NCBI RefSeq assembly: GCF_001625215.2
Contig: NC_030389.2
Span: 43,575,454-43,639,453, forward strand
Direction of reading: 5' to 3'
Source of the DNA: Daucus carota subsp. sativus
Lineage: Eukaryota > Streptophyta > Magnoliopsida > Apiales > Apiaceae
DNA length: 64,000 nt
Positions within the stretch are counted from its first letter, which is position 1; the number at the start of each line of letters is the position of its first letter. The translations under genes and the position numbers were made by a program. The notes under the pieces are model-generated. The model was not told the origin of the DNA, did not search any database, and was given only the letters and a program-made list of their open reading frames with translations. Below, piece after piece: positions 2,351 through 64,000 of this stretch.

Positions 2351-5300
2351 TTAAAGATTTTTTCGGCCCAATTGCCAAGACAATTGATCAACAGCAACCA
2401 TCGCACGAGACGCTGAGGCAATAGAACCATCATATCTGTAGCATACAGAGACAGTTCAAATATTAAGGTCGCTTATAAAATAGATGAGAAAGTAATATAT
2501 TCAAAAGATCAATATATATATATATATATATATATGGCCGTGCTCCGTGGAGAACATTTTTAGCGTGAGAACACTTAACAGAACACTATTGTTCTGTTGC
2601 AGAACAATATAACATTCAGAAAATGAAATTTTTCCAAAACAATTGTTCAGCACTTTCTAAGAAGTGCATAACAATTGTTCTCACTGTTCTCACAAACAAA
2701 ATGTTCTCACCTGAATCACTGTCTATATATATATATACTCTCCATGTCGGGTGAAGGCCCTAATTATCTGTTTTTAAATAAGATAGGACCAAGATACTTT
2801 AAGTCGGAAGTTTGGCCCAAACTACCAACCAGACACGCTATACGAAATAACGTATCCTTGAAGATATGCCGCAGATGAAACAAAGTATATGCAAGACACA
2901 ACAATGTATAGAGCATATCATTCAGTTCTAACCCCAGATATAAGGTCATCCTCAAACAGCATATGGATGCATCACTGTATCCACTATCAATTCAAAATAG
3001 CTCACTCTTTACATTTCTCTCACAAATAAGATAAGATTGCGTTTGAGAACATGTATTTTATTTCAAATTTTGGATTTCAAATGACATGATTTGAAGTGTC
3101 ATTTTAAATTCTCAGCTTTATACTAGTTGGATATGGTATCGAGCATGTCCGGTGATACTTATTTTCGAAAAATGAGGACTTATTTATGGAAAAAAAAATT
3201 ATATTTACATAACTTTTTTATAATTAAGTATGTAACAAGCGTTTAATATTCCATATTTGCATAAATAAGTCACTTATTTCTATAAAAAAAAGTACATATT
3301 ATATGTACTTATTTCAGAAATAGAACCGTAATGTGTTTAGGTTTGTGTGATGATATGATTAAAGATATGATAATAGTTTACTAATTTTAGAAAGTTTTGA
3401 AATGCAAACAATTAGGAAGGACATATAAAAACTGGAAAACGTAAAGAATTGGTTGGCAGTTGGGACGGAGGGAGTATAAGTTAACATATTGCCCGTCATT
3501 ACTTACAATGCCACAAGGAGGAATGCCGCTGTTTGCATCACAATGGCACCTTCACCAGCATGATTTGACGTGTTCATGCATCTTGCAGAAAACCAGTTTT
3601 CAAATATTGACGTTACAACATCTGTTTCATTGTCATATACAACTTCAAACGATTAGAGATCACAAAAGCGTAAATTGTCCCCATGATATCCATCTATCTA
3701 CAAAACATGGTGGCTGACCACTTTCCTCACAAGACCCTTACTATAGAAAGATGGCTATATGAATTCATGATGGTCTATGATAAACTGACTGAAGTCTTAT
3801 GATGGTTAAGTTTTGATACTAAGATCCCCCAACCAAGACAATAAAATTTTTGTGCAGTAGAAAAACTTACATTGATTTGACTCAATATAGAAGCTCTCAC
3901 TCTGAAGATTATTCCGTTTGATAAAGTTAATAAATTGACTCAACTCAACTGGATCTGCTTTTATTCCTTCTTGTTCTTCACTACAAGATTAAGCCAAGCT
4001 TTAACTTTGAGCTCTTAACCAATATATGCGCATTGTGAAAGGCAAAGTAGAAACATCATTCAACATTTCCCACATATACTTGCTGAGATAAAAGTAGCAC
4101 CTCGTTAATCTGCTACTACGTTGAAACATAATTTTATCATGTGAAAAAAGATGCTATATGCAAAAAGTATTATTAGTTGAACACATTACGATTGTGATGA
4201 TGATTACTTCTAATAGTAAGAGCAAGTCCGATATCATATGCAAAATTGTTGAGATTAATAATTCAAACTTATTTGAATTGTTTTAAAATTATTTAAATTT
4301 TTAGCTATTGGGTAACTCGAATTAGTTAGAGATTAGAATGAATAAGTTAGTAGTGATAAGTATTTTGAAGTCCCATCTATTAGGGATGGTTATCCTTATG
4401 TGTTAGCCTATAAAATGCAATTTCATGTATTCAGAATATATATGAGATCATAAAAATCATTTTTCTCAGCATAACATTTTGTTCTTTTTCTCTCAATTAA
4501 AAACCAACAAAAATGACTACAGCCATTGCTAATATATCTTGGTGCTAAAATGGAACTTGTACTCCAATGCTCCTTGCAAATTGCAACCAACTGATTCCAT
4601 ATTTAACCGACAATTTATCCAACTCTTCCAGCTTCCATTTAAAGTGGGCCAACTTGCATTCCGTATCTAGTAATTGATTGATGATATGGCAAGGATGCAT
4701 ACATCCATCCTTAGTTTCAAATTTGGAATCAAAAATGTAAGCATTTTTGCAATTGAGTATGCAATTACTTTCTGGTGGTTATTTTCTTGTATTTGGTTTC
4801 AAATAATAGTAATAGTAATGCAACCAAGCATAGTATTGCATTGGAATTGCTCCAACAATACCAATGTTTTTATCAGGTAAAATATTTGCATATTAGTAAC
4901 AATTACATACAAATCACTTACAAACTCTGAGAAATTTCTATGGCAAGTCAGCCATAAGACCATTTAAATTTTATTTTAAACAAGGGGGTGAGTGTGTAAT
5001 ATAACGTACATCCAATCTGAGTATTCATCTTCACAATCCTAAGAATATATAAGAATATCATATAGCCATATCGACTTACGAAGCCTTGTAGTTAATTAAA
5101 CATTACCTTGATCTCCTACTAATACTTCATATTCTTTGTTGGCCCTGGTAGGGGTCAAATAATCCGTTTTAGACCTTTTAAGATGTGTAATTTAATGTTT
5201 TAAGCCGGAATAAAGGATGATTGAGGCATGGCATACATATACTCCGATAAGCTAATACCCTGTTTAGTTAACAGTGACAATGTGACAGTATGGGGCAAAT

Positions 5301-13586: not shown

Positions 13587-14336
13587 TAGGGATGGACATT
13601 TACCCCGCCCCGCTCGACCTCGATTCGATTCCCGTCGGGTCGGGAATTCAGAGAATTTTTTGGGGTCTGGACGGGGAGCCCCGCCCCGCTCGACCTCGAT
13701 CCGATCCCCGTCGGGTCGGGAATTCGGAGAATTTTTTGGGGTCTGGGCGGGGAGCGGGGAAAATTTATAAAAAATTCGCGGATCGGGGCGGGGTCGGGGT
13801 TTCGTGTCTCCCCGCCCCGATCCCCGACCCTGATCGTATATATATGTAAAAAAAATAATTTTTTATATGTAAATAATAATATATTTATATATATTATACT
13901 AAATATATTATTAAAAATAGATATCTTTTATAATATTATTAAAATTTTAAAAAATAATCTTAATTTTTATTGATCGATTATTATTATATTGTAATATAAT
14001 ATATTTAATAATTTTAAAATTATCGTTTATTTATATTAGAAATAATTTTAATATGATTTGATGTTAAAAATCTGAGATAATATTATTTTATTAGTATATT
14101 ATGAGGTAGTAGTTTGTTTTTTATTGAAATAATATATTATATATTATAAAATTATTATTTTTTATTAAAAACTAAAATTCCCCGAATCCTCCGGGATCCC
14201 CGTTCCCCGTTCAGAACGAGGATGGGGTGGAAAAAAAATCATCGTTCAGGGTTCGGGACGGTATCGGGGATAGACATTGAATTCGGGGATGGGGCAGAGA
14301 TAGCATTTCCCAACCCCGAAATGCTCCCTTGCCCTA
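13587..14336. mobile_element. non-autonomous hAT-like element with GC-rich ends
   Basis: The element begins TAGGGATGGACATTTACCCC and ends with TTGCCCTA. An imperfect 8-bp duplication flanks it (CATAGACT left, CATAGTTT right, with one base of ambiguity at the right edge). Each terminal 150-250 bp is very GC-rich and runs in CCCCGACC and GGGTCGGGG words. The left end holds a 76-bp tandem duplication (starts near 13611 and 13687). The middle 400 bp is almost pure AT. A truncated relative lies at about 39554-39981 in inverse orientation. It ends 130 bases before the start codon of F-box copy B. Confidence 0.72.
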
Positions 14337-14465: not shown

Positions 14466-17424
14466 ATGGGTTCTCCAGCTAAGAAGAAAATGAGGGTTCT
14501 TGATACTGAAGTAGATAGACTCAGCAGCTTGCCTGATGATCTGATTCACAAAATCCTCTCGTTTCTTGATGCGAAAGAAGCACTTCGAACCAGCGTTCTC
14601 TCGAAAAGATGGAAGCTTGTGTGGACTACTCTCCCTTTTCTCAATTTTGGTGAGTATCAATACTCTTCATATCTGAACACATGTAGCTTGATCGACCATG
14701 TTATGAAGCACAGGCACCGTCAATCCCATATTTATCAATTGAGTTTATGTGTTTCAAAGAATGGACCTACAAAAGGGTTGGTTCAACAGTTTATCGCTCA
14801 TGCAATCTCGCGCAATCTCGAAAACCTAAGTCTTGAGTTGAAATATAAACACACTATGTCTTATAAGCTATCCACTTTAAGCTCTAAGTTGTTAAAGAAA
14901 CTTACTCTGGGAGTCAGACTTGAAGACTTTGCTTCGGAATCAGATCGCTGGGATCTACCTGCTTTAACGTATCTTCACTTGAAACGCCCCATTTGGGATG
15001 GTAAATACAATGTACCTGACTCATGTTTGACTTGCTTGCCTGCTTTAAGAACACTGTGTCTGGATAATTGGGATTTTTCAAAATCGTCGTTTTCTTTTAG
15101 TTTGCCGGATTTAACAACTCTTCGTTTGTCTGGGTGTTGTAAATTCCCTCGAAAAATTTGGAACTTCCCAGCTTTATTAAGTCTAGAGCTAGATAATGTA
15201 GTTCTTATGTGGAGTTGTATGGACATATCAGCACACCTTCAATTTTCTTTTCCTCAATTGCTCAACCTGGACATTAGAACCCGCTTCTCTGATTCTAAAG
15301 TTTCGTTTCAAATTTCCGCACCAAAACTCTACAATTTTAGGTCTGTTGGTATCTTTTCAATGAGGCTTGAGGCTCCTGTGTTGGAAAATGCGAACATGAA
15401 GTTACAGGGTTGGTTTGGGAATTTGGAATGGATATACAGAAAGCGATATTATCTAAGGTTCCAAGATATGCTTTCACAACTTGGTAATGCCAAAAATCTT
15501 ACTTTTGACTTGGAGAGCATTGAGGTAACTTTGTTTGATAATTTTTATTTGATCAGATCTTTAGTAGAGCCTCTTTTTGTATTGGTACTTGATTGTGTAA
15601 CTTGTTGCCTTGATATAATTAGTTTCTAGTCATGCATGTTATTTAGTTGCAAATTTATTATTCACGGGTAACTAGTCACACATTAGACCCTTTAATCTAC
15701 ATTCAGTGTCATCCCTCCTAGTCTCCTATAGCACTATCTCTCCAAGTTTATCCATCTTGGATATGTTAAAATAGGCCTATGAATTCTGATTGTTACACTT
15801 TGGCTGTAATAATAGAAAAATAAGTTATTCAGTAATTATAGTAGGGAGATGGTCCATGACAAGTGATTATTGGGAACAATCTTATACGCGATAATATACC
15901 GTGGAAAACAAAAAAAACCCTAGAGTGGGTGTCTAAATCGCGGATGGGCCTGATTGGCCCCTGCATACACATAAAAAACTTAGTGTAATCTTTTTTCGCT
16001 AAAAAATAGCTCAGATAGTATGCTGCAACTAACGCTTGTCAGCGACCCTGACCCATTATAGTATGTACAATGCATCTTTGCGTTTTCAATTTTGATGATT
16101 AGTATTCCAAATTAATTTAAATAACAAAATGACTGATGTTATATTCTATAAGTTTCCTTAACAAAAAGTAATTGTCTTCTCTCATTAGCTCATTAAGTGA
16201 TCTAGCTTCTAGTATATTCAGGTTCTTTAGACAACAAATACATGAGTAATCGACATGTTAATTTTTATTATTTTCTTGTTGCATTATGAAATGCTTTAAT
16301 GTTGTAGTTCATTTGATGTTTAGTGATTTATCTAAATCCCGTTTGAATTTTCTAGGCACTCTCTATGATTTCCGACAACTTTGCCGGTAAACCTTCTCCA
16401 TTCCATAACTTGAAGTGTATAAAGTTACCACATGAATGTAGTGAATCAAGTATACCAGGTGCTCTTAGAAGCTACTTAATTGGCGGCTCTTCAGCAGGGA
16501 CCATTGTGACAACATTTCCTTGGGTATTTAATAAATCTATTATTATCCTTCTTGACAATTCACAGTCACATCATATATTGTCTTGTTTTTGAGGAGATAC
16601 AATACATGTAGAATTTGTTATTATTAGGCGATCTCCTGTAAGTTATGGCATTGTGATGGGAACTAGGGGATGATCGGTCGATTAATGGGCATTCATTAAG
16701 GATTTTCTAGAAAATAGGTTTTGAATATATCTGTCTATATCTATCTATCTATCTATATATATATATATATGGTCCTACTCCACTTCAAACCCTTCTTAAA
16801 CTAAAAACTGAAATAAAATTCTTTAAATCACATCGAAATATAGCACATATGGTATGGAATCGATCCTTGGGAGATGAGGAAAAACACAATGAAGTCGGAT
16901 TTCAAAAAAAAGTTCACCGATTGACGGGAATATTCAAATTAAAAACGGAGAAATTATCTGGAATCATGTGTGGGAGGGTGCAGGTTTATTGTGTGTGGTG
17001 AATTCTAGGGGGGGGGGGGGGGGCATTAGATTAGATTGATCTGATGATGGCTGAGATTAGTTTGTATTTGAACACTTGCCTATATATATTTGTTCAAATA
17101 CAAACTACTAAAATACAAACCAAGGGAAACTATACTTAAACGACATCACCCACCCTCTGTATGTCATCACCCACCCTCTATATGTCATCACCCATCACCC
17201 ACCTAGGGCCCACCCTCGCCCCCATTTAATCCACCCTGAGCCCGGGCCTGGCCCCGCTAGAGCCTCGGCAAGGCTCCCACAGACAGCTTTAAGAGCCAAA
17301 ACTTGGCCCACCATGGCCCCTCTTAGACCCCATCTATGCCCATCTCGGGGTCCATCCCCGGTCTCAAAACCCTTACCATTCTACTTAATCGGATTGGTTT
17401 GTATTTAGTTTGTATTGGTTTAGG

Positions 17425-17502
<78 letters not shown>

Positions 17503-20647: not shown

Positions 20648-23600
20648 ATGAGCGCGACTACTGGACCAGTTATTCGCAAATTCATCCCAGTTGAACACTC
20701 GCAGACTCATGGTATGTACTTCAATTTAGCTTATCTGGCTTTAAAATTGCTTTTATTACTTCAATTTAGCTTATCTGGCTTTATAATTGCTTTTATTAAC
20801 TGAATTTCGCGGAATTACACGTTCATATCAACTGAATCTGCGATTTGGATTCATCAATTTGATAAGTAAATGGAGAAGATTGAGATAGAGATGGATGGAG
20901 GCGAGGAAATATTCATTTCGTTAATTAGTTAGTGATGAGGCTTGTCTATCCTTTTAACGGTTTCGGCCTAACTCGTGCCGACAAGGCATTCGAATGTAAA
21001 GGAAATTAACAATTGCTAAACACATTGGTGTATCAGCTATATATGAAACTATATCTATACTTATATAAACAATTTCTAAACGACACCGGGAGTTTGTCAC
21101 TTGTGACAGTGTATTGTTGCTTTTGTTTCCAACTTGTCTGGAGTTCAATGTGCTTTGATAATGGTGATGACTGGATAAGTGCTAATGCTGTGATATATTA
21201 ATAATGGAATGTGATGAGGTTGTGTATACATGCTAGACATGTAAGCAAACTTGAGTTCGAGTTCTTGATTTTAATGAAGTACGAGAAACTGTTAACTTTG
21301 TGTTAAGTTTAAAGTTTCGATTATATATTTATATTTATTACCGCTGTGCTTACCATCGTAAATACTATTACAGGCTCCAAATTGCGCCTCGTCTCATATA
21401 ACATTTTGGCCCAGGTATGCCTTAACGTTAATCTAACACCTGTTCATAATTATGAATTTGTAATGTAAACATCCTAATCCTATGTGCTCTGTGTAATTGT
21501 TTGTAGAGAATTTTCTAAATTACTAACTTTTATAAAGTTATTTGAAACTCTACTACATGCATGAAATTATATGCAGAGTTTCGGTCTGCAACCAATTACA
21601 GCTTGAATCAACTTCTTGTATTTTTCCTTTAACATTGGTTTTTTTAGAAAAGGTGGCAGTTGCATATTTGGGTTGGATTTTGTTGCTTTTAGCTGATTTT
21701 GTTTGCAATTTTAATTTATTAGTTGCATGGTTTGGAAAGATGCATTTTGCAAAAAGTTTTTAATTGAACTGTGGTTTTGCCATAAAAATTGTTTTTTGTA
21801 ATTTTTTTTAAAAAACTTTGTCTTAATGAAATCTTTTCTCTTTATTGGTACTAGTGCTTATCCAAGCCATTCATTTAAGTTTAAAATACAAATTTATTAA
21901 CCTGAATAGATATAGTTACAGTTTTAATGCACCTTTTTTTAAAATCTGATTTATTTCCTCTTATGTTGAACTATCATTTCATATGTAATCTGGTGTCTAG
22001 ATTACTCTTAAAAGGAATGACATTTAATTATAGTGATTAAGAGTGCACTTCATGTAAGACACACATGTGTTGTGGTGTTGGTTTAAATATGGCTGTAATC
22101 GAAATTTACTGTATTACTATCATTTAATTTGAACTGAATAACTAATATCACTATTTACATTTATTCATTTTGTAGGCTTATGTGAAGAGCTCCTTGTTTC
22201 CGCATTCACCAGCACCTTGTCTCAAGTAAGTACTTTACTCTGATATGTGTGTCATATTATATATGTTTCCACTAGCATGCACTCACCCTTTTTAGTGCTT
22301 TCAAATAAGTTATTAATTGGAGTTTTATTGTGATTTGAAGTTTGATTTATAATTACTGTTGACAATGCATCAATTCATTGACATGCAAACAAGTCACAAA
22401 ATACATGACGTACAAGTTTTCATGCTAGTATTCTGTTGTTTAGGATTCTTGGGATAGTCATATAGATGACTTCACATAATTTGTATATGAATATTTTACT
22501 GAAAAATACTTTAGAATCCATTCGAGTGTGTAATAAGTTGCTGAAAAGCACTAATTCAAAACTAATTTAATGGTATTTCTCAGAAGGGATCTATAGAACA
22601 AATAACTGCTGTATATGGTCATCAACTCATCAACTAGTCATATTATGCAATAGCAACTTTCAGATGTTGTCTGTGGCCAATTAAAAAATTACTCTAGTTT
22701 TACGAGGTTAACTAAATACGTGGTAAGTAGGTTGTGGATACTATAATCCTGGTATTTGTATCTGATTTTAAAATTTTAAGAATCTCTATCTCTCTTTCTC
22801 CATCCCTCTCCCTTCTCATATTATTACTAAGAACTTAAATATTTCATGGCTTCTACGTTACATCTGTGTATAAGTCGATCTGTTGATACCACCATGACTA
22901 GATCTGGCAGTTCTGGTATTCAGATTGGTGCCGGATCAGAAGTTATTTTTTTGTATAAGTCGTTATGTGATCAGGGTATAGCATACTCTTGACTTCGACT
23001 TGATCATTTACGATGATTTTGTAATCTTGTTCTTATTCATCATTAACAGTTCGGTACTTTGGTTATATGCATTGACTCATTGCTAAGTTCTTTAACTGAT
23101 ATAGGTGGAAAGCTCGTTGCCAGGAACTTTTAACTGTTCTTAGGAGCTTTGAGGCTGATATCCTTTGCTTACAGGTATTCCACTACTTCTGCTATTTATC
23201 TTGATTTCCTTGCATCAAGTTCATGTGCCATGCACTATTTGTTTTTATCTAAGTTAATATTTACTCGCATCACCAGGAAGTAGATGAGTATGATACCTTT
23301 TACAAAGGAAATGTTGAGAGTCATGGCTATTCAAGTGTTTACATCCAGAGAAGTGGCACAAAGCGTGACGGCTGTGGAATTTTTTACAGAAACAATAAGT
23401 ATGAGAGCCTTGTTTTATGTTTTAATGATGCATTAATATATATATATATATATAACAGTGGTTTAAGATTGTTTCAAATAATATGATACTGTCATGCAGA
23501 TTGGAGTTGGTCATGCAGGAGAAAATAGACTATAATGATCTGGTGAACTCTATTCAAGAAGAAGAGGCATTGTGTGCTGGTATGGATAAAATTACCGTTA

Positions 23601-56430: not shown

Positions 56431-56439
56431 TTTGATAAT

Positions 56440-56584
56440 ATATTTTTGGGCTTTTTTTATTCATAATCACTTTTTCAATCTTATTTCCAAAAATACTACA
56501 TTATCCAATCTTATTTTCAAAAATACTACCTTCTCTAAAATATTTTCAAAAATACTGTGGTTGCATTATATATATATATATATA
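56440..56584. mobile_element. partial TTGCAT-type element end and (TA)n
   Basis: The reverse complement of 56455-56565 closely matches 63255-63365, sharing repeated AAAATACTAC and AAATATTTTCAAA words, and ends GGTTGCAT next to a TA tract (56566-56584). It is therefore one end of the same family as the partial element at the right edge of the cluster, in opposite orientation. Confidence 0.6.
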
Positions 56585-57702
56585 GGGGATAGTTCAATGA
56601 GTAACTCGTTTGTTTGGGTAACTTGGTAACTTTTGATCCTAGCCATACAACTCAGCATGCACGCTCCAGACGCTCCAGTATAAGAATAACTGTAATACCT
56701 AGACACCTAGTCATGTGTTTACACACGTAGTCCATATGTTCTGTATTTTCAAAACTCTTAATATATAACTGTAATACCTAGTCACGTGTTTACACAGTAG
56801 TCCATATAATCTGTATTTTAAAAACTTTCAACATATTTTAGTACAAACATAAAACATAAAAAATGTTATTTTACTCCTTGAACACACAACAAAAACTCAA
56901 ATATATAACAAATATAATACAAAACATGTGAAAACATATAAAATAAAATATTTAAACAAATAAAAATACAGCACAAGCTAAAAATAAAAAATAAATGAAA
57001 TAAACAATTCCATATATATATATATATGAAAACAAATAAAATACTAAATATGTGAGAAAATACAGTACAAAAATACAGGACATTGTATAATAAATTAAAG
57101 AACAAACATGTTAAGAAATGTATAATATAAAAATACAGGATATTATATTTGTTGTATCCTGTATTTTCATTATTCTTTCAATTTTTTTTATTTTTTAACT
57201 AGTAATATGAACAATATTTATTTGATATGTGTCTGCATAACTTGTAGTACATATTACTAAAATAAATCAAATCTACACTAAAATGGTACACATTTATTTT
57301 TATTTTTGAAAAACTTATGTCCTGTATTTTATATAATTTAAATTCTTTATTTACAAAATAATCTTTAAAAAAGTAGAGAAATATATGTTCTGTATTGAAA
57401 ATACTTATAACTAATTTAAAATATAAATAAATATTATAAATCAAAGAACAAACATGTCAATAAAATTTAGAGTAAAATAATACAGGACATTGTATTTCTG
57501 TATTAAATATTTTTTTGTTCTTCACTTTTTATTTTTGTTAGTACGTGTCTACACAACTGTGCATGTTTACAGAACCGTGTACCAACAGAACTTGACTAGG
57601 TTTGAAGAGAAGAAACTGTTTTTCTTATATTGGCGCCGTGTCCTTTTTAAGTCTTAGAATAGTTCCTAGGTTACCATTTTATGGGTTACTCAAGGAGAAG
57701 CC

Positions 57703-57705
<3 letters not shown>
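56585..57705. mobile_element. TA-bounded TIR element B
   Basis: A 1,121-bp element lies between TA tracts. The left end GGGGATAGTTCAATGAGTAA and the reverse-complemented right end GGGGGCTTCTCCTTGAGTAA share GAGTAAC and GGTAAC blocks. The right 80 bases, including GACACGGCGCCA, are nearly identical to those of element E. The interior repeats TACAGGACATTGTATT-like words. No transposase. Confidence 0.68.
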
Positions 57706-57735
<30 letters not shown>

Positions 57736-57737
<2 letters not shown>

Positions 57738-58330
57738 CAGGTGCTCAAATACAAACTCCTTAGTGTACAAACGTACAAACAATCACTAAATGACTTGAAC
57801 AGAATCACTAAATGATTGAACAGAATCACTAAATCTAGTGGGGGGTCTGATGGAGAGATAAGGGGAGGGGAGCACTTACGGGGCGGCATAGCCGAGTGGT
57901 GGTGCAACGCGGCCGGCGGCAGCCACGACGCCGGCGCGAGAGCAGTGCTAGAAACACGATTGTGGGAGATGAGAAAAGCAGTGGTGAATGTGTGTGTTTG
58001 TGTGTGTATAGCACTAATCGGTGAGCGAACAACCAGAGAGAGAGAGCCGCTGGCAGTGGTGGTGGTGGTTGGTGGTGAGAGAGAGAGAGGCGCTGGGCAG
58101 TGGTGGATGGTGGAGAGAGAGAGAGAGTGGCGCTGGGCAGTCGTGGTGGGTGGTGGGTGGTGGTGGTGGTGGGTGGGGTGGTCGTGGTGGTGGTGATTGG
58201 AGGTGATTGTGGTGGCGGTGGTGATGGATGTATGTGTATTTGTTAAATTAAAATCTGCTAATCACTAAATATTAGTGTCATAATCACTGGTTTGTACGTT
58301 TGTACAGTAAGGAGTTTGTACCGGAGTAAG

Positions 58331-58334
<4 letters not shown>
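57736..58334. mobile_element. TA-bounded TIR element C
   Basis: A 599-bp element whose inverted ends share TACAAACTCCTTA and TGTACAAACGTACAAAC. Subterminal copies of AATCACTAAAT follow. The core, about 57840-58225, is a G-rich minisatellite of GGTGGT and GAGAGA words. Flanking TA tracts are shared with elements B and D. The long open frames in the core are low-complexity artefacts. Confidence 0.75.
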
Positions 58335-58386
<52 letters not shown>

Positions 58387-58389
<3 letters not shown>

Positions 58390-58810
58390 CAAAGTTCCAT
58401 GTAGTCCACATATTTACTGTAGTACCGTAGACCACATATGTTCTGCAACTATAGAATGACATAAAAACATTGCAAAATGTGTTATTTTGCAAATCATGTT
58501 CTATAAACATCATTATTTTGTTAAAAATTTTGACAATCCTAAACATTCTACAAGTTAAATAGTGAAAACACATTATTCTGCAAAACATGTTAAGTTTGCA
58601 GAACATATTTACATATTACAGAACATATATGTTCTACTTGTCGAACATAAATAATTTTCAATATTTTTCGTGAAATAGTGATATTTATAGAATGTATTTC
58701 ACAAAATAACAAGTTTCATATATTTTACAATGTTTTTATGACATTCTATAGTTGCAGAACATACGTGGTCTACGGTACTACAGTAAATATGTGGACTACA
58801 TGGAACTTAA

Positions 58811-58813
<3 letters not shown>
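58387..58813. mobile_element. TA-bounded TIR element D, ~100-bp near-perfect TIRs
   Basis: A 427-bp element with arms that match over about 100 bases with only a handful of differences, including TGTAGTCCACATATTTACTG and CTGCAACTATAGAATG. The TA tracts are 58335-58386 on the left and 58814-58895 on the right. The two arms would form a long hairpin in RNA. No ORF. Confidence 0.82.
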
Positions 58814-58895
<82 letters not shown>

Positions 58896-58901
<6 letters not shown>

Positions 58902-60390
58902 AGTTCAGCGAGTAACTAGTAACTTGATAACTTTTAATCTGGACCGTAGAATATATGCATGTATGTTGGAAGCCTGTAACTGCAAACCTAATTCTCACGC
59001 ACGTTGCATGTATAAACGTTAAGTAAGCACATGTATAAACGTTAAACGTTAAGTACTTAGTCACGTAGTTTTTTTTTTTATCATGGTTATATATTTCATA
59101 TTCTTAATTTTTTTTATTTTTTTATATTATATTTTTTGTGATGCATATTTTTAGTTTCTGAGTGTGTATTATACTACCTATATTAAAAATACATAACGAA
59201 TTGTATTGAAAAAAAAAATACCTAACATGCTAAAAAAATTATACATAAATAAAAACAGAAAATGGGAGGAAAAAAACTGTATTAGAAATACAGAACATTG
59301 TATTTGTTATTTTTTTTACGTTTTTCTTATTTTTTTAATATTTTAAACAAAAGTGGTGCTCGTTTATTTTAAATTTGTATATCTGAAAAACTTATGTTCT
59401 GTATTTTAAATAATTTTAAAGACACTATTTTAAAAATTATGTTTATAAAATATATAAAAATATGTTATCTATTTAATAAAATTACAACATATTTATATAA
59501 CAAAACATAAAACATAATAAATTACAAATTATGAATAAACATTTGAGAAAAATACAGTATAAGAAAGTACAAGACACTATATTAGTTGTATTGTGCATAT
59601 TTTTTATTCTTTAATTTTTATTTTGAATATATTTATTTCATACTTGTGTACAGAACTTGTAGTACCTGTTTACAGAACTTTAGGTTTGAAAACAAAATAC
59701 AGGATAAAAAAATACAGGACATTGTATTGGTTTTTCTTATAAAATATCAAATATATAACAAAATACAGGACAAAAAAATACAGGACATTGTTTTGATTTT
59801 TTTTATAAAATACCAAATATATAACAAAATACAGGACAAAAAAATACAGGACATTGTATTGATTTTTTTTGTTCTTAATTTTTATACAAAAATGGTACAC
59901 ATTTATTCTTATTTCTTATATTTAATATGTAAATTTTAAAATTAAAAAAATTATGTTCTTTGTTTTTTAGCCTTAACTACTTTATTTAAAAAATTATATT
60001 CACAATATAAATATAAAATTTTTTTTATTTAAAATACTTACAAATTAATTTATATAACCAAATAAAAAATGTGAAATATTATAAATCACAAAATAAACAT
60101 GTCATGGAAATGTAAAAGTATAAAATAATACAGGACAATGTATTTGTGGTATTCGGTATTTTTTTATTCTTCTTCTTTTTTTATTTTTTATAAATACGTG
60201 TCTACAGAACTTGTGATAAGTGTTTACAGAACTTATTAGTTTTGAAGACAAGCACGTGTGTTCCCGTTTTAAGTGTTTTAACGCCGTGTCTTTTTTGGCT
60301 CATGCATCCGTCTTTGGCGCCGTGTCTTTTTTAACTCTTAGAAGAGTTACTAGGTTACTTTTTAGTTGGATCCTCAAGGAGAAGCCCCCT
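58896..60390. mobile_element. TA-bounded TIR element E, relative of B
   Basis: A 1,495-bp element. The left end GGGTAGAGTTCAGCGAGTAA and the right end (reverse complement AGGGGGCTTCTCCTTGAG) match those of element B, as does the subterminal AAAGACACGGCGCCA. A 66-bp tandem repeat built around AAATACAGGACA runs three times from 59694. The long open frame over it is a repeat artefact. It abuts element F with only ATAT between them. Confidence 0.7.
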
Positions 60391-60394
60391 ATAT

Positions 60395-60994
60395 CGATTC
60401 CAACGATGAGGTCGAAAATGACATTTGAAAACTGGAACTTGAAATTAGGATTTGTAGTTGCATATATGGTTGCATATGAGGTTGTATTCATTTGATTCTA
60501 TTGTAATCTAATGGCCCCGCCAGGGGCACCCATACATCAGTTGCAACTTTAAGTTTTCCGTTGCATATGCAACTAAATGCAACTGAAAACTGTAAGTTCC
60601 AACTGAAGTATGGGTGCCCCTGGCGGGGCCATTAGATTGCAATGGAATCAACTGAATGCAACCTCATATGCAACTAAATGCAACTGAAAACTGTAACTTA
60701 CAACTGAAGTATGGGTGCCCCTGGCGGGGCTATTAGATTGCAATAGAATCAACTGAATGCAACCTCATATGCAACTAAATGCAACCTCATATGCAACTAA
60801 ATGCAACTGAAAACTGTAAGTTGCAACGGATGTATGGTGTGCCCCTGGCGGGGCCATTAGATTGCAATAGAATCAACTGAATGCAACCATATGCAACTGA
60901 ATACAACCAGATGCAACTATATATGCAACTGAATTCCTGATTTCGAGTTCCAGTTTTCAAATGTCATTTTCGACTTCATATTTGGAATCCATAT

Positions 60995-60996
<2 letters not shown>
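60395..60996. mobile_element. TA-bounded TIR element F with GC-rich repeat core
   Basis: The arms match over about 75 bases, sharing GTCGAAAATGACATTTGAAA, CTGGAAC and GTTGCATATAT. The core holds one inverted and three direct copies of a unit with TGGGTGCCCCTGGCGGGG (starts 60611, 60712 and 60835; inverted at about 60513-60535). Spacings are 101 and 123 bp. The right (TA)n is 60997-61069, about 36 units. Confidence 0.78.
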
Positions 60997-61071
<75 letters not shown>

Positions 61072-61085
61072 CAACTACAACTGCA

Positions 61086-62108
61086 TGGAGGATTAAGGTC
61101 CGAGTATCAAGAATGTGGCGAACTTTAAATCGGCATGGAGAAACAGTAGCATTGAACTTGATTCTTATTGATGAATTGGTAAGTACACATCTATCAACAT
61201 AGAAATTATACATCCTCATAGCTTAGAACATTACTAAATTGACTGTCACGCTTACAGGGAGGCCGCATTCATGCATCGATTCCACCACAAAACATCGATC
61301 AACTAGAGATTCATCTTAATGAAGGAGAAACCTACAACGTGCATAATTTCGTTGTTCGGCCATATTCAGCAATGCAAACTGAAAGATGCTTTCAAAATGA
61401 TATATATATATATATATATATATACAAATGTATCATATGACTGAAGTTTTCGTTACTGGAGGTGTAGATTACATCCCGGCTCATATATTTCAATTCACTA
61501 ATTTGTCAGCTATAATCAATGCTGCATTGCAAAACATATTCCTCATTGGTGAGCTCTATTTCTCAAGTGCACGCATTTACCACAAGTGAAGCACTTTCTA
61601 ACTGTATGCTCTCTTATACAGATGTTGTTGGTATACTACGACAATTCCAACCAATAAGGAACTTCAAGAACAAATATAATCAAGAACAATCCTGCATTCG
61701 ATTTACGATCAATGACATGCAGTTTGTGCTTGGAATCTTCATCTCTAATTTTATACAAAGACTACATGTACAACAATTTAATTTCTTTTTCCATCTTTTA
61801 ACAGTACTTCAGCAGAGGTTACATTCTACAACGAACTGGCTCATTCTTTTCATCAAGCAATCCAGCAAGCTGACGAGCATCCCATAATTGTTATCATTTC
61901 AAGCTGTCAATCCAAATTCATTCAAGGTACTTCTCAAAATAGGAAATTATCCTTTTCTAATGTCTTCGTAAAACATTGTTAAATTTGTGTTTTAGGTGAG
62001 CCAAAGTTGAGCAACTTGCAAGCAACAAGATATTTCCTAAATCATAATCATGAGGCAGTGGAGGATTTGAGGAATGCATTAAGGTTGGCAAATTGGCGTC
62101 TCGACTAG
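61086..62108 (+). pseudogene. replication protein A-like OB-fold gene, Helitron-associated
   Basis: Exon-like segments are 61086-61178, 61258-61548, 61622-61725, about 61805-61926 and 61996-62108. They encode an RPA70/DUF223-type OB-fold region: SRMWRTLNRHGETVALNLIL, then EGETYNVHNFVVRPYSAMQ, VFVTGGVDYIPAHIFQF, and a C-terminal segment ending RLANWRLD before TAG. Plant Helitrons often carry such single-strand-binding proteins. A (TA)n run at 61401-61424 in the second segment shifts the frame by two bases. No start codon is in frame, because the 5' side ends at the (TA)n of element F. The third junction is also out of phase. It is therefore a decayed copy. Confidence 0.7.
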
Positions 62109-62401
62109 GCTTCTTCAGTATCTTTCAGCAAGAAGATGAAATTCCTGTTATTTCGTCATTTTATTTCTGTAATGAATTCTACTGTTTGTAATAACTTATG
62201 GGAACTTGCTACTACTCTGTAATATTCTATGGTAACTCGGTACTTTGGCTATCTTTGCATTCGGTCTCCTCGGCATGTTCTGCAACATATACTCCACCGT
62301 GTAATCTAAAGTAATATATGTATCCTAACGTGCAGCTTCGCGTAACTGCTTTCATGAAACATGGCATAAATAGTATCAAATTGTTTCTTTGTTAAATTGA
62401 A

Positions 62402-62431
62402 AAGCCCAGCAACGCGGGCAAAAAATCTAGT
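62402..62431. mobile_element. Helitron-type 3' terminus
   Basis: The short hairpin GCCCAGCAACGCGGGC followed by AAAAAATCTAG and then T fits the 3' end of plant Helitrons (stem-loop about 10 bases before CTRR, insertion before T). It is 294 bp downstream of the RPA-like stop codon and in the same orientation, so the two probably belong to one element whose 5' end is missing. Confidence 0.65.
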
Positions 62432-62444
62432 ATATATATATATA

Positions 62445-63128
62445 GAGAGAGAGTTTTACTCCAATAGAAACCTCCTTATTCTAGAAACTAGAAACTATCA
62501 CTAAATTTCTAAGAGAATATCACTAAATTCTCAAACAACCCCATTATCTCCTTCTTCTTCTCCAACCCACCAACCCTCCACCCCACTTCCGGCAGCTTCA
62601 CCCTACCACCCCCGCCAAGTCTCTGCTACTCTCTCCACCTCCATGCCGCCCGACCCTCCATAGCCGCCACCTCCATGTCGGCCTCCATTATTTATATCAC
62701 CACCAAATCCAACCCCCCTCCGGCCTCCACCGTCCCTTCCATTCCACCCCCACCTCCACCTCCACCTGCACCTTCGTCCTCACCTCCACCTCGGTCTTCC
62801 TCACCTACAGTACCGTATATCTAGCTTAATGCCGATTTAAATTCCAGATCTTTGCCAAAAATCTGCCGGACAAAGCTAAAGGCTCCTTCCATGTCTACCA
62901 CCTCCATCTCCACCTTCACCTCCATTATCTCCACCACCGCAACCACCACCTGAATCGGCAACTAGAACAGATTCACAAATTCTGGGCAGTTTCCGCAAGT
63001 TTTCACTAATTCGTGCAACACATATCACTAAATCGTAAAGAGAATATCACTAAATTGTACTGAGGATATCACTAACTTGTATTGGTTTCTAGTTTTTATT
63101 TTAAAAGTGGTTTCTATTTGATCATGAG

Positions 63129-63130
<2 letters not shown>
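62445..63130. mobile_element. TA-bounded TIR element G, relative of C
   Basis: The left end (TTACTCCAATAGAAACCTCC) and the reverse-complemented right end (ATCAAATAGAAACCAC, then AAAACTAGAAAC) are inverted repeats. ATCACTAAAT occurs several times in both subterminal regions, as in element C. The core, 62540-62960, is a C-rich CCACCTCCA minisatellite, the strand-complement flavour of the G-rich core of C. TA tracts flank it at 62431-62444 and 63131-63159. Confidence 0.68.
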
Positions 63131-63159
<29 letters not shown>

Positions 63160-63162
<3 letters not shown>

Positions 63163-63370
63163 TATCGACTCCAAAGATGAGGTCGAAAATGACATTTGAA
63201 AATTGAAACTTGAAATCAAGATTGTAGTTGCATATATGGTTGCATATGCAACCACCGTATTTTTGGAAAATATTTTCAAAAAAGTAGTATTTTTGAAAAT
63301 ATTTTAGAGATTTGAAAATAAGATTGGAGAAGGTAGTATTTTTGAAAATAAGATTGAAAAAACAATATAC
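63160..63370. mobile_element. partial element H, F-type left end
   Basis: After a (TA)n tract the sequence GACTCCAAAGATGAGGTCG, then GAAAATGACATTTGAAAA and GTTGCATATATGGTTGCATA, repeats the left arm of element F. It then runs into the AAATATTTTC and GGTAGTATTTTTG repeats that match 56455-56565 inverted. No right terminus could be placed. Confidence 0.62.
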
Positions 63371-64000
63371 AAGATAATTCCCTTATATTTTTTTTGATTC
63401 ATTAGAAAATTTTGATAAGTCGATTAAGTTCCGATTTCTGATTTGTATAATCATAAACCTTAACTTTAGACTTGATAATAAGTAAGAAAAAAGTTTTATT
63501 TTAATTTTTTCTAAATAAATGTTTTGATATAATAATAACAATAAGTTATTTTAAAATTTTTATTTAATAAAATATAATACAGTGACTATTTTATTAGATA
63601 TCTGATTTAATTATTTTATTAAAGTTTAATACAATTTTTTGTATAAAAATTAATAATTTAGTTTCAAATTTCTAAAGTTTGAAAGTTATATCTTTCTCAA
63701 TATGATTATCTGCAATGATTTACCTGTAACATTACGAGGCTCTCTCTGAGAATCTGGTGGATCTTTTGACATTTTATCCTCCTAGTATCTAAAATAATGT
63801 TGTTGAAGCCAAGAAGAAAAGGAACACCTACTTAGAAAAGTTCTATTGCTAAAATGTACCTGAATTAGTAGAAATTTTCTGGAGCTTTTCAAGTTTAATT
63901 TGACTCAGAGAGTTTGTAATGAAAAATTCAAACAAGCACAAGTGAATTACAAAGTCTTACATGCTAAAAATCTGTTAGAATATAGTATATGATCTTGGTA
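63371..64000. other. AT-rich end of window, no gene seen
   Basis: Nothing supportable is present. The last 300 bases are less AT-rich and have splice-like words (TTACCTGTAAC, ATGTACCTGAAT) that could belong to a minus-strand gene continuing beyond the window, but no frame could be built. Confidence 0.35.

Follow-up and report, generated by a model that had tools for sequence, protein, structure and literature searches.

A row of TA-bounded elements in the carrot genome probably arose within a Mutator-like element that carries its own TA tracts

Results

The row of elements lies between the arms of a single larger element

We analysed one assembly of Daucus carota (441,086,747 bases in 11 contigs) with a stretch of 64,000 nucleotides on contig C9 as the point of reference (G000:C9:43575454-43639453; hereafter the window, in whose coordinates positions are given). 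Between positions 56439 and 63392 the window contains a row of elements that have inverted-repeat ends and are bounded by (TA)n tracts. Five of them, designated B, C, D, E and G, were confirmed as terminal inverted repeat (TIR) elements, and the neighbours B/C, C/D and D/E each have one tract in common (Table 1). A first-pass annotation, which had been made from the letters alone, described six complete elements, B to G, plus partial ends. This description stands for B, C, D, E and G; the sixth element, F, forms the core of a larger one, here called Z, and the supposed partial ends are the two arms of Z. Likewise, the sharing of tracts between neighbours does not extend to F and G, which are separated by a Helitron-like fragment, and the bare ATAT noted between E and F is indeed a short piece of TA (TATAT), but a leftover of Z's own tract. 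We consider it probable (about 0.8) that the 6.9-kb stretch represents a single Mutator-like element (MULE), Z, with later insertions inside it.

The evidence for Z comes from its paralogues. In a genome search (best 40 of 745 candidates) the first 85 bases of F recurred in inverted orientation just beyond several F copies, and five paralogues were taken from the F copies with an inverted arm close by, which means that they were selected as empty. These paralogues represent one element type of 1000 to 1337 bp (an arm of L070 is partly missing, L071 contains an extra stretch) and show that F is the core of Z, which rules out F as an independent element. All five are flanked by target duplications of 9 bp, of which four are perfect and one matches at 8/9, and the window copy spans 56448-63383 between two 9-bp copies of TATATTTTT.

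TA is found at the same two positions of Z in all five paralogues, where it provides the tract sites without an element that the first-pass annotation had proposed to look for. The left tracts measure 12, 20, 68 and 84 nt, with one interrupted (9, 10 and 9 nt), and the right tracts 30, 34, 36, 50 and 60 nt. In the window, B to E occupy the left tract, and G and the Helitron-like fragment the right one. Around this right tract, the two arms of the window copy are 88% complementary over 118 nt including the tract. Moreover, an ungapped palindrome check gave 55-60 identical positions of 85 at five tracts, compared with 15-31 at five other stretches.

That the entire row is enclosed in one Z, with only one duplication on the outside, would also be expected if the row were one composite element or duplicated segment moving as a unit. 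However, at other loci B to E and G have different neighbours and face varied termini across their tracts, and the row is present in none of the five fetched Z paralogues (selected as empty), which renders a composite unit very improbable. Amplification of the row as one unit was rejected, as its parts recur with other partners. In the genome, a tract of at least 10 nt leads straight to another terminus at 18 of 46 C sides and at 7 of 31 resolved G sides (of 36); these counts include the copy in the window as well as two duplicated pairs of loci, and two or three of the heads counted are doubtful.

TA tracts are apparently preferred but not required as targets

The copies read for each family were the best-scoring ones; old copies are therefore under-represented, and the family sizes are lower bounds. 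For the related elements B and E, a TA tract of at least 8 nt was present within 6 nt at 20/20 ends, which came from 17 copies picked for a match reaching a terminus. For C, of which the best 30 places including the window copy were read (117 matches listed; 210 candidates, 40 scored), a tract of at least 10 nt was found on at least one side in 26 copies, 20 of them with tracts on both sides and 6 on one, which leaves 4 copies without any. Reading 20 of the 40 scored copies of G (1074 candidates) revealed TA beside both ends in every case, some of it short or interrupted, with a perfect tract of at least 10 nt on 36 of 40 sides. Among the best 30 places of D, again including the window copy (84 matches listed; 748 candidates, 40 scored), 24 lie outside tracts, four have tracts of at least 10 nt on both sides and two on one side. 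Thus, the tract rule is near-absolute for B/E, C and G and a minority case for D. As D lies mostly outside tracts, a TA tract constitutes a preference and not a requirement. The proposal of the first-pass annotation that TA tracts are targeted is borne out for B/E, C and G, whereas D shows what had been named as speaking against it, namely that most sampled copies are not flanked by TA tracts.

The copies outside perfect tracts revealed target duplications. Of the 24 non-tract copies of D, 21 have a 10-bp duplication at 9/10 or better and 18 a perfect one, as compared with 9/10 in 2 of 552 mismatched pairs of flanks; no perfect duplication of 8, 9 or 11 bp was found among these 24. Three of the four C copies without a perfect tract (L048, L059 and L060) show perfect 10-bp duplications in imperfect TA, and in the fourth the match starts inside the element. 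These lengths fall within the 8-11 bp of Mutator-like elements.

These duplications bear on two other explanations of the tract flanks. For guayule, it has been put forward that the elements enter TA tracts as circular intermediates, whose ends are joined by TA filler, through homologous recombination rather than through transposase insertion, since many flanks there lack duplications (PMC5907723). Such recombination fits the present data from pure TA tracts equally well, and some flanks are out of phase (L024, L046, L058) or of unlike make (L096). Taken alone, it leaves unexplained the perfect 10-bp duplications of the C copies in imperfect TA and the duplications of 21 of 24 non-tract D copies, and elements that bear a transposase and a like head occupy the same sites (see below); we therefore regard it as distinctly unlikely. 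According to a view cited for maize elements (PMC5907723), insertion occurs at short TA sites and the tracts are lengthened later by slippage. The window tracts of up to 82 nt, the tract lengths that differ between copies, the short and imperfect TA around two C copies (L059 and L060) and the prevalence of D outside tracts would agree with this. However, in empty Z copies the used sites already carry tracts that measure 12 to 84 nt (with interruptions in one left tract), and D copies outside tracts have gained none at their ends, although their mutual similarity equals that of the copies in tracts. Tract growth may well contribute, without replacing tracts as targets, and as the full explanation slippage appears unlikely, if slightly less so than recombination.

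Three observations concern single copies or ends. At L026 (G000:C2:52994421-52995259) two D copies are joined tail to tail with no tract between them. At L144 (G000:C3:13653120-13653860) a C copy is broken by an element of ~0.63 kb with the ends AGGGGTGTACACGG and CCGTGTACACCCCT and a short duplication, which we take to resemble hAT-type miniature inverted-repeat transposable elements (MITEs). The 5′-end of G passes into a GA repeat of varying length beside the TA tract (62445-62453 in the window; in L096 a GA run lies between the end of G and TA), and slippage in this repeat could imitate a flanking microsatellite other than TA.

Most termini share one head

Most termini in the window match one head, GG-N5-RYTCM or a near form (D starts with GA rather than GG), and the several unrelated-looking terminus families of the first-pass annotation are thus not upheld. 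The families are distinguished by a short word repeated after the head: GTAAC in B/E, TACAAAC in C, TAGAAAC in G and GAGAAC in the small element at 2536. The form of the head was set down from the window elements before other loci were considered, and the genome-wide pattern used a wider gap (N4-6). The pattern (TA)6-GG-N4-6-RYTCM occurs at 1047 + 1031 = 2078 sites in the genome, as compared with 5 + 9 = 14 for the reversed pattern, which served as the control. (TA)6-GG alone gave 2394 + 2350 sites versus 246 + 243 in the control, so that the head is present at 44% of the (TA)6-GG junctions versus 2.9%. Among 100 head places listed, the gap is N5 in 96, N4 in three and N6 in one, and at least 31 different 12-base heads occur.

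Among 125 tract sides that do not resemble the families of the window, the strict form of the head was found at 12 sides versus 14 of 5760 shifted positions, and the loose form at 14 sides versus 80 of 5760; this comparison is neither blind nor random, because the regular expressions were written after the locus list had been viewed and the loci surround C and D copies. Moreover, a Z arm followed by a TA tract and the head pattern was found at 5 + 6 places in the genome and at 0 + 0 in the control. Two pairs of such junctions enclose a whole insert (C4:41867462 with 41868345, and C8:28704419 with 28704868), and at L093 a B-type end and a Z arm lie on opposite sides of one TA tract.

Two families with FAR1 and MULE domains carry the head

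A genome search with PF10551 yielded 150 scored matches of 813 candidates. One match on contig C1 lies 1.3 kb inside a listed head; three further matches with the same open-frame length (395) were chosen, and the regions expected to contain their 5′-ends were fetched. All four copies of this first family begin with (TA)n-GGGG[GT]AGGTTCAAAAGAGACGGGG in TA tracts, and their open frame has FAR1 and MULE domains. A second family (L135 and L136) begins with GGAAAATGTTCCACAACC. L136 contains an open frame of 808 codons with FAR1 and MULE domains and has its 5′-end at a 34-nt TA tract, and the head of L135 lies in plain AT-rich DNA outside a tract. Together, five of the six FAR1-MULE copies read have the head in a TA tract. 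A correctly oriented head 1.3-1.5 kb upstream of PF10551 matches was seen in 3 of 16 cases on C1 below 23.43 Mb and in 2 of 11 on C2 below 31.92 Mb, both counted by eye and without a control. The 3′-end of the first family was not found in L140, and the similarity between L145 and L140 ceases at element offset 2724. A relative with the same termini and a transposase, which the first-pass annotation had expected to name the superfamily, was thus found in part: the two families share the head and point to the Mutator superfamily, but their inner words differ from those of B to G.

A Helitron-like fragment and other features of the window

Helitrons are characterised by a 3′ hairpin, a CTRR end before T, a 5′ TC start and a Rep/helicase gene. 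The fragment between the right tract of Z and G terminates in CTAG, which is followed by T, and has a small hairpin (z −2.27) and a weak match to DUF223 (22.5 bits, cut-off 24.6); no 5′ TC start was found at its tract. Its label is based on the 3′-end and a sub-threshold domain match. Helitron-like CTAG 3′-ends lie directly before TA tracts in this fragment, in L043 and in L046. The pattern CGGGC-N4-14-CTAG-(TA)6 occurs at 14 + 15 = 29 genome sites and nowhere in the control, a count restricted to Helitron ends at TA.

TA tracts adjoin the three elements at 2536, 16771 and 17090, in agreement with the first-pass annotation, and the latter two have the 9-nt tract 17081-17089 in common. Element-free TA tracts are present inside B (57012-57027) and inside the Helitron-like fragment (61400-61424). 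Tandem repeats occupy 13603-13755 and 20717-20807; their units measure 76 bp (GC-rich) and 40 bp.

Table 1. Features of the row and of three further elements in the window.
Feature	Position	Strand	Remarks
Target duplication of Z, left copy	56439..56447		9 bp, TATATTTTT
Z, left arm	56448..56566	+	Z positions 1-119
TA tract left of B	56567..56584		18 nt
Element B	56585..57705	+	word GTAAC
TA tract, B/C	57706..57735		30 nt, common
Element C	57736..58334	+	word TACAAAC
TA tract, C/D	58335..58386		52 nt, common
Element D	58387..58813	+	near-palindromic; 10-bp duplications elsewhere in the genome
TA tract, D/E	58814..58895		82 nt, common
Element E	58896..60389	+	related to B
Remnant of left tract of Z	60390..60394		TATAT; alignment with Z paralogues
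Core of Z ('F')	60395..60996	+	85-91% identity to cores of L069, L071, L073
Right tract of Z, left part	60997..61068		72 nt
Helitron-like 3′ fragment	61069..62430	+	CTAG end, weak DUF223 match
TA tract before G	62431..62444		14 nt
Element G	62445..63130	+	word TAGAAAC
Right tract of Z, right part, after G	63131..63159		29 nt
Z, right arm	63160..63383	+	97% identity over 253 nt including tract
Target duplication of Z, right copy	63384..63392		9 bp
Small element of like make	2536..2723	+	word GAGAAC; TA of 24 and 14 nt beside it
Element of like make	16771..17080	+	both ends match head (GGTCCTACTCC / GGCAAGTGTTC); TA of 17 and 9 nt
Second element	17090..17428	+	TA of 9 and 69 nt; outermost bases match head poorly

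Discussion

The simplest account of the row is Mutator-type cut-and-paste transposition with a preference for alternating TA. Z would have landed with a 9-bp duplication, bringing along two (TA)n tracts in its interior, each centred in an imperfect palindrome. The small elements, which would duplicate 10 bp of the target on moving by Mutator-type cut-and-paste, would then have entered these tracts: B to E the left one, and G the right one beside the Helitron-like fragment. The target would be AT-rich DNA with alternating TA favoured, in a graded manner: B/E, C and G would use tracts almost only, and D mostly ordinary AT-rich DNA. The palindromes around the tracts may have a part in this choice. 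As TA would be kept on both sides after each landing, the next element could settle beside the previous one, and a row would form. The nesting into tracts of earlier insertions that the first-pass annotation had considered thus holds insofar as the tracts arrived with Z. The landing site, that is, the TA tracts of Z, is itself mobile. Judged by the head common to them, a FAR1-MULE clade would most likely move B to G.

Several observations weigh against this account. The inner words of B to G are absent from the six transposase-bearing 5′-ends read, the 3′-ends of the transposase-bearing elements were not found, and four of the six long-frame MULE transposase loci L134-L139 (L134 and L137-L139) lack a convincing head. 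The Z paralogues were selected for emptiness, and ~80 bp of Z (positions 120-200) are also gone beside the left arm at the left tract in the window. Furthermore, a 10-bp duplication is invisible within pure TA tracts. The phase that it predicts for copies with tracts on both sides is observed in 17 of 20 C copies and 2 of 4 D copies, the remaining 3 and 2 being out of phase. Genome-wide, the opposite phase (AT before GG-N4-6-RYTCM) occurs at 529 sites (control 12) versus 2078, many of the opposite-phase places listed having N4, as though one G had been lost. Phase is therefore a bias and not a rule.

Rows of MULE-related MITEs in TA tracts are already known in plants. SaTar elements of guayule and rice form rows of unlike non-autonomous MULEs linked through common TA tracts, with ~30% of copies linked, 10-bp duplications outside microsatellites and transposase-bearing relatives in the same sites (PMC5907723). 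The carrot row resembles them in its linear arrangement, common tracts, 10-bp duplications outside tracts and transposase-bearing relatives in TA sites (PMC5907723). No SaTar element interrupts another, whereas the carrot row is embedded in a MULE, at the TA tracts of that MULE itself, and the accessible text describes no head across SaTar families, whereas here the head is common to families (PMC5907723). Of the features of SaTar and MiM elements, we found linear rows with common tracts (B-C-D-E in the window, C and G sides elsewhere) and the preference for TA microsatellites (B/E, C and G; D in 6/30 copies only), but not the absence of interrupted elements.

The carrot MiMs comprise 15 families and 2156 copies with TA flanks; three families have putative autonomous Mutator relatives, and movement and targeting are called unclear (PMC8227079). 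One or more of the elements B to E and G may belong to these published families. MuTAnT of Medicago is a MULE family in TA tracts; the few copies elsewhere have 9-nt duplications, its empty sites comprise about nine TA repeats, and its transposase is similar to Jittery (PMC4486113). Its search mask GGGGTTTGCTAGAACA starts with GG-N5-RYT, like the head described here, which is a lead and not a test; MuTAnT differs in being one family with two subfamilies and in its 9-nt duplications, as compared with 10 bp here (PMC4486113). The Ac-mMITEs of pineapple lie in TA tracts, are often clustered and show 9/10-bp duplications outside tracts, and their two families have similar TIRs; they differ in comprising only two families, and, according to the accessible text, no autonomous element was found in pineapple (PMC8449440). 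Rice Micron elements lie in TA microsatellites and are reported to have MULE-like TIRs (PMC5907723), and Micron has been treated as a superfamily whose members occur chiefly in grasses and Rosaceae (PMC12550479). A literature search, which covered papers outside subscription and without their supplements, yielded neither a head common to many families nor a MULE hosting others in its own TA tracts. The additions made here are the mobile TA landing pad, the head common to many families and the support for cut-and-paste.

The duplications in copies outside tracts or in imperfect tracts support ordinary cut-and-paste transposition with a target preference, and the head motif offers an easy means of searching for such families and their transposases. 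As Z shows, sites at which elements land in TA can themselves move, and this would help to account for the formation of rows. More tentatively, and going by sequence likeness, one FAR1-MULE clade might serve dozens of MITE families via the head GG-N5-RYTCM, with the repeated inner word conferring family identity, and Z, a second type of MULE, might spread paired palindromic TA tracts as mobile docking sites. If this holds true, the target niche would multiply along with its users.

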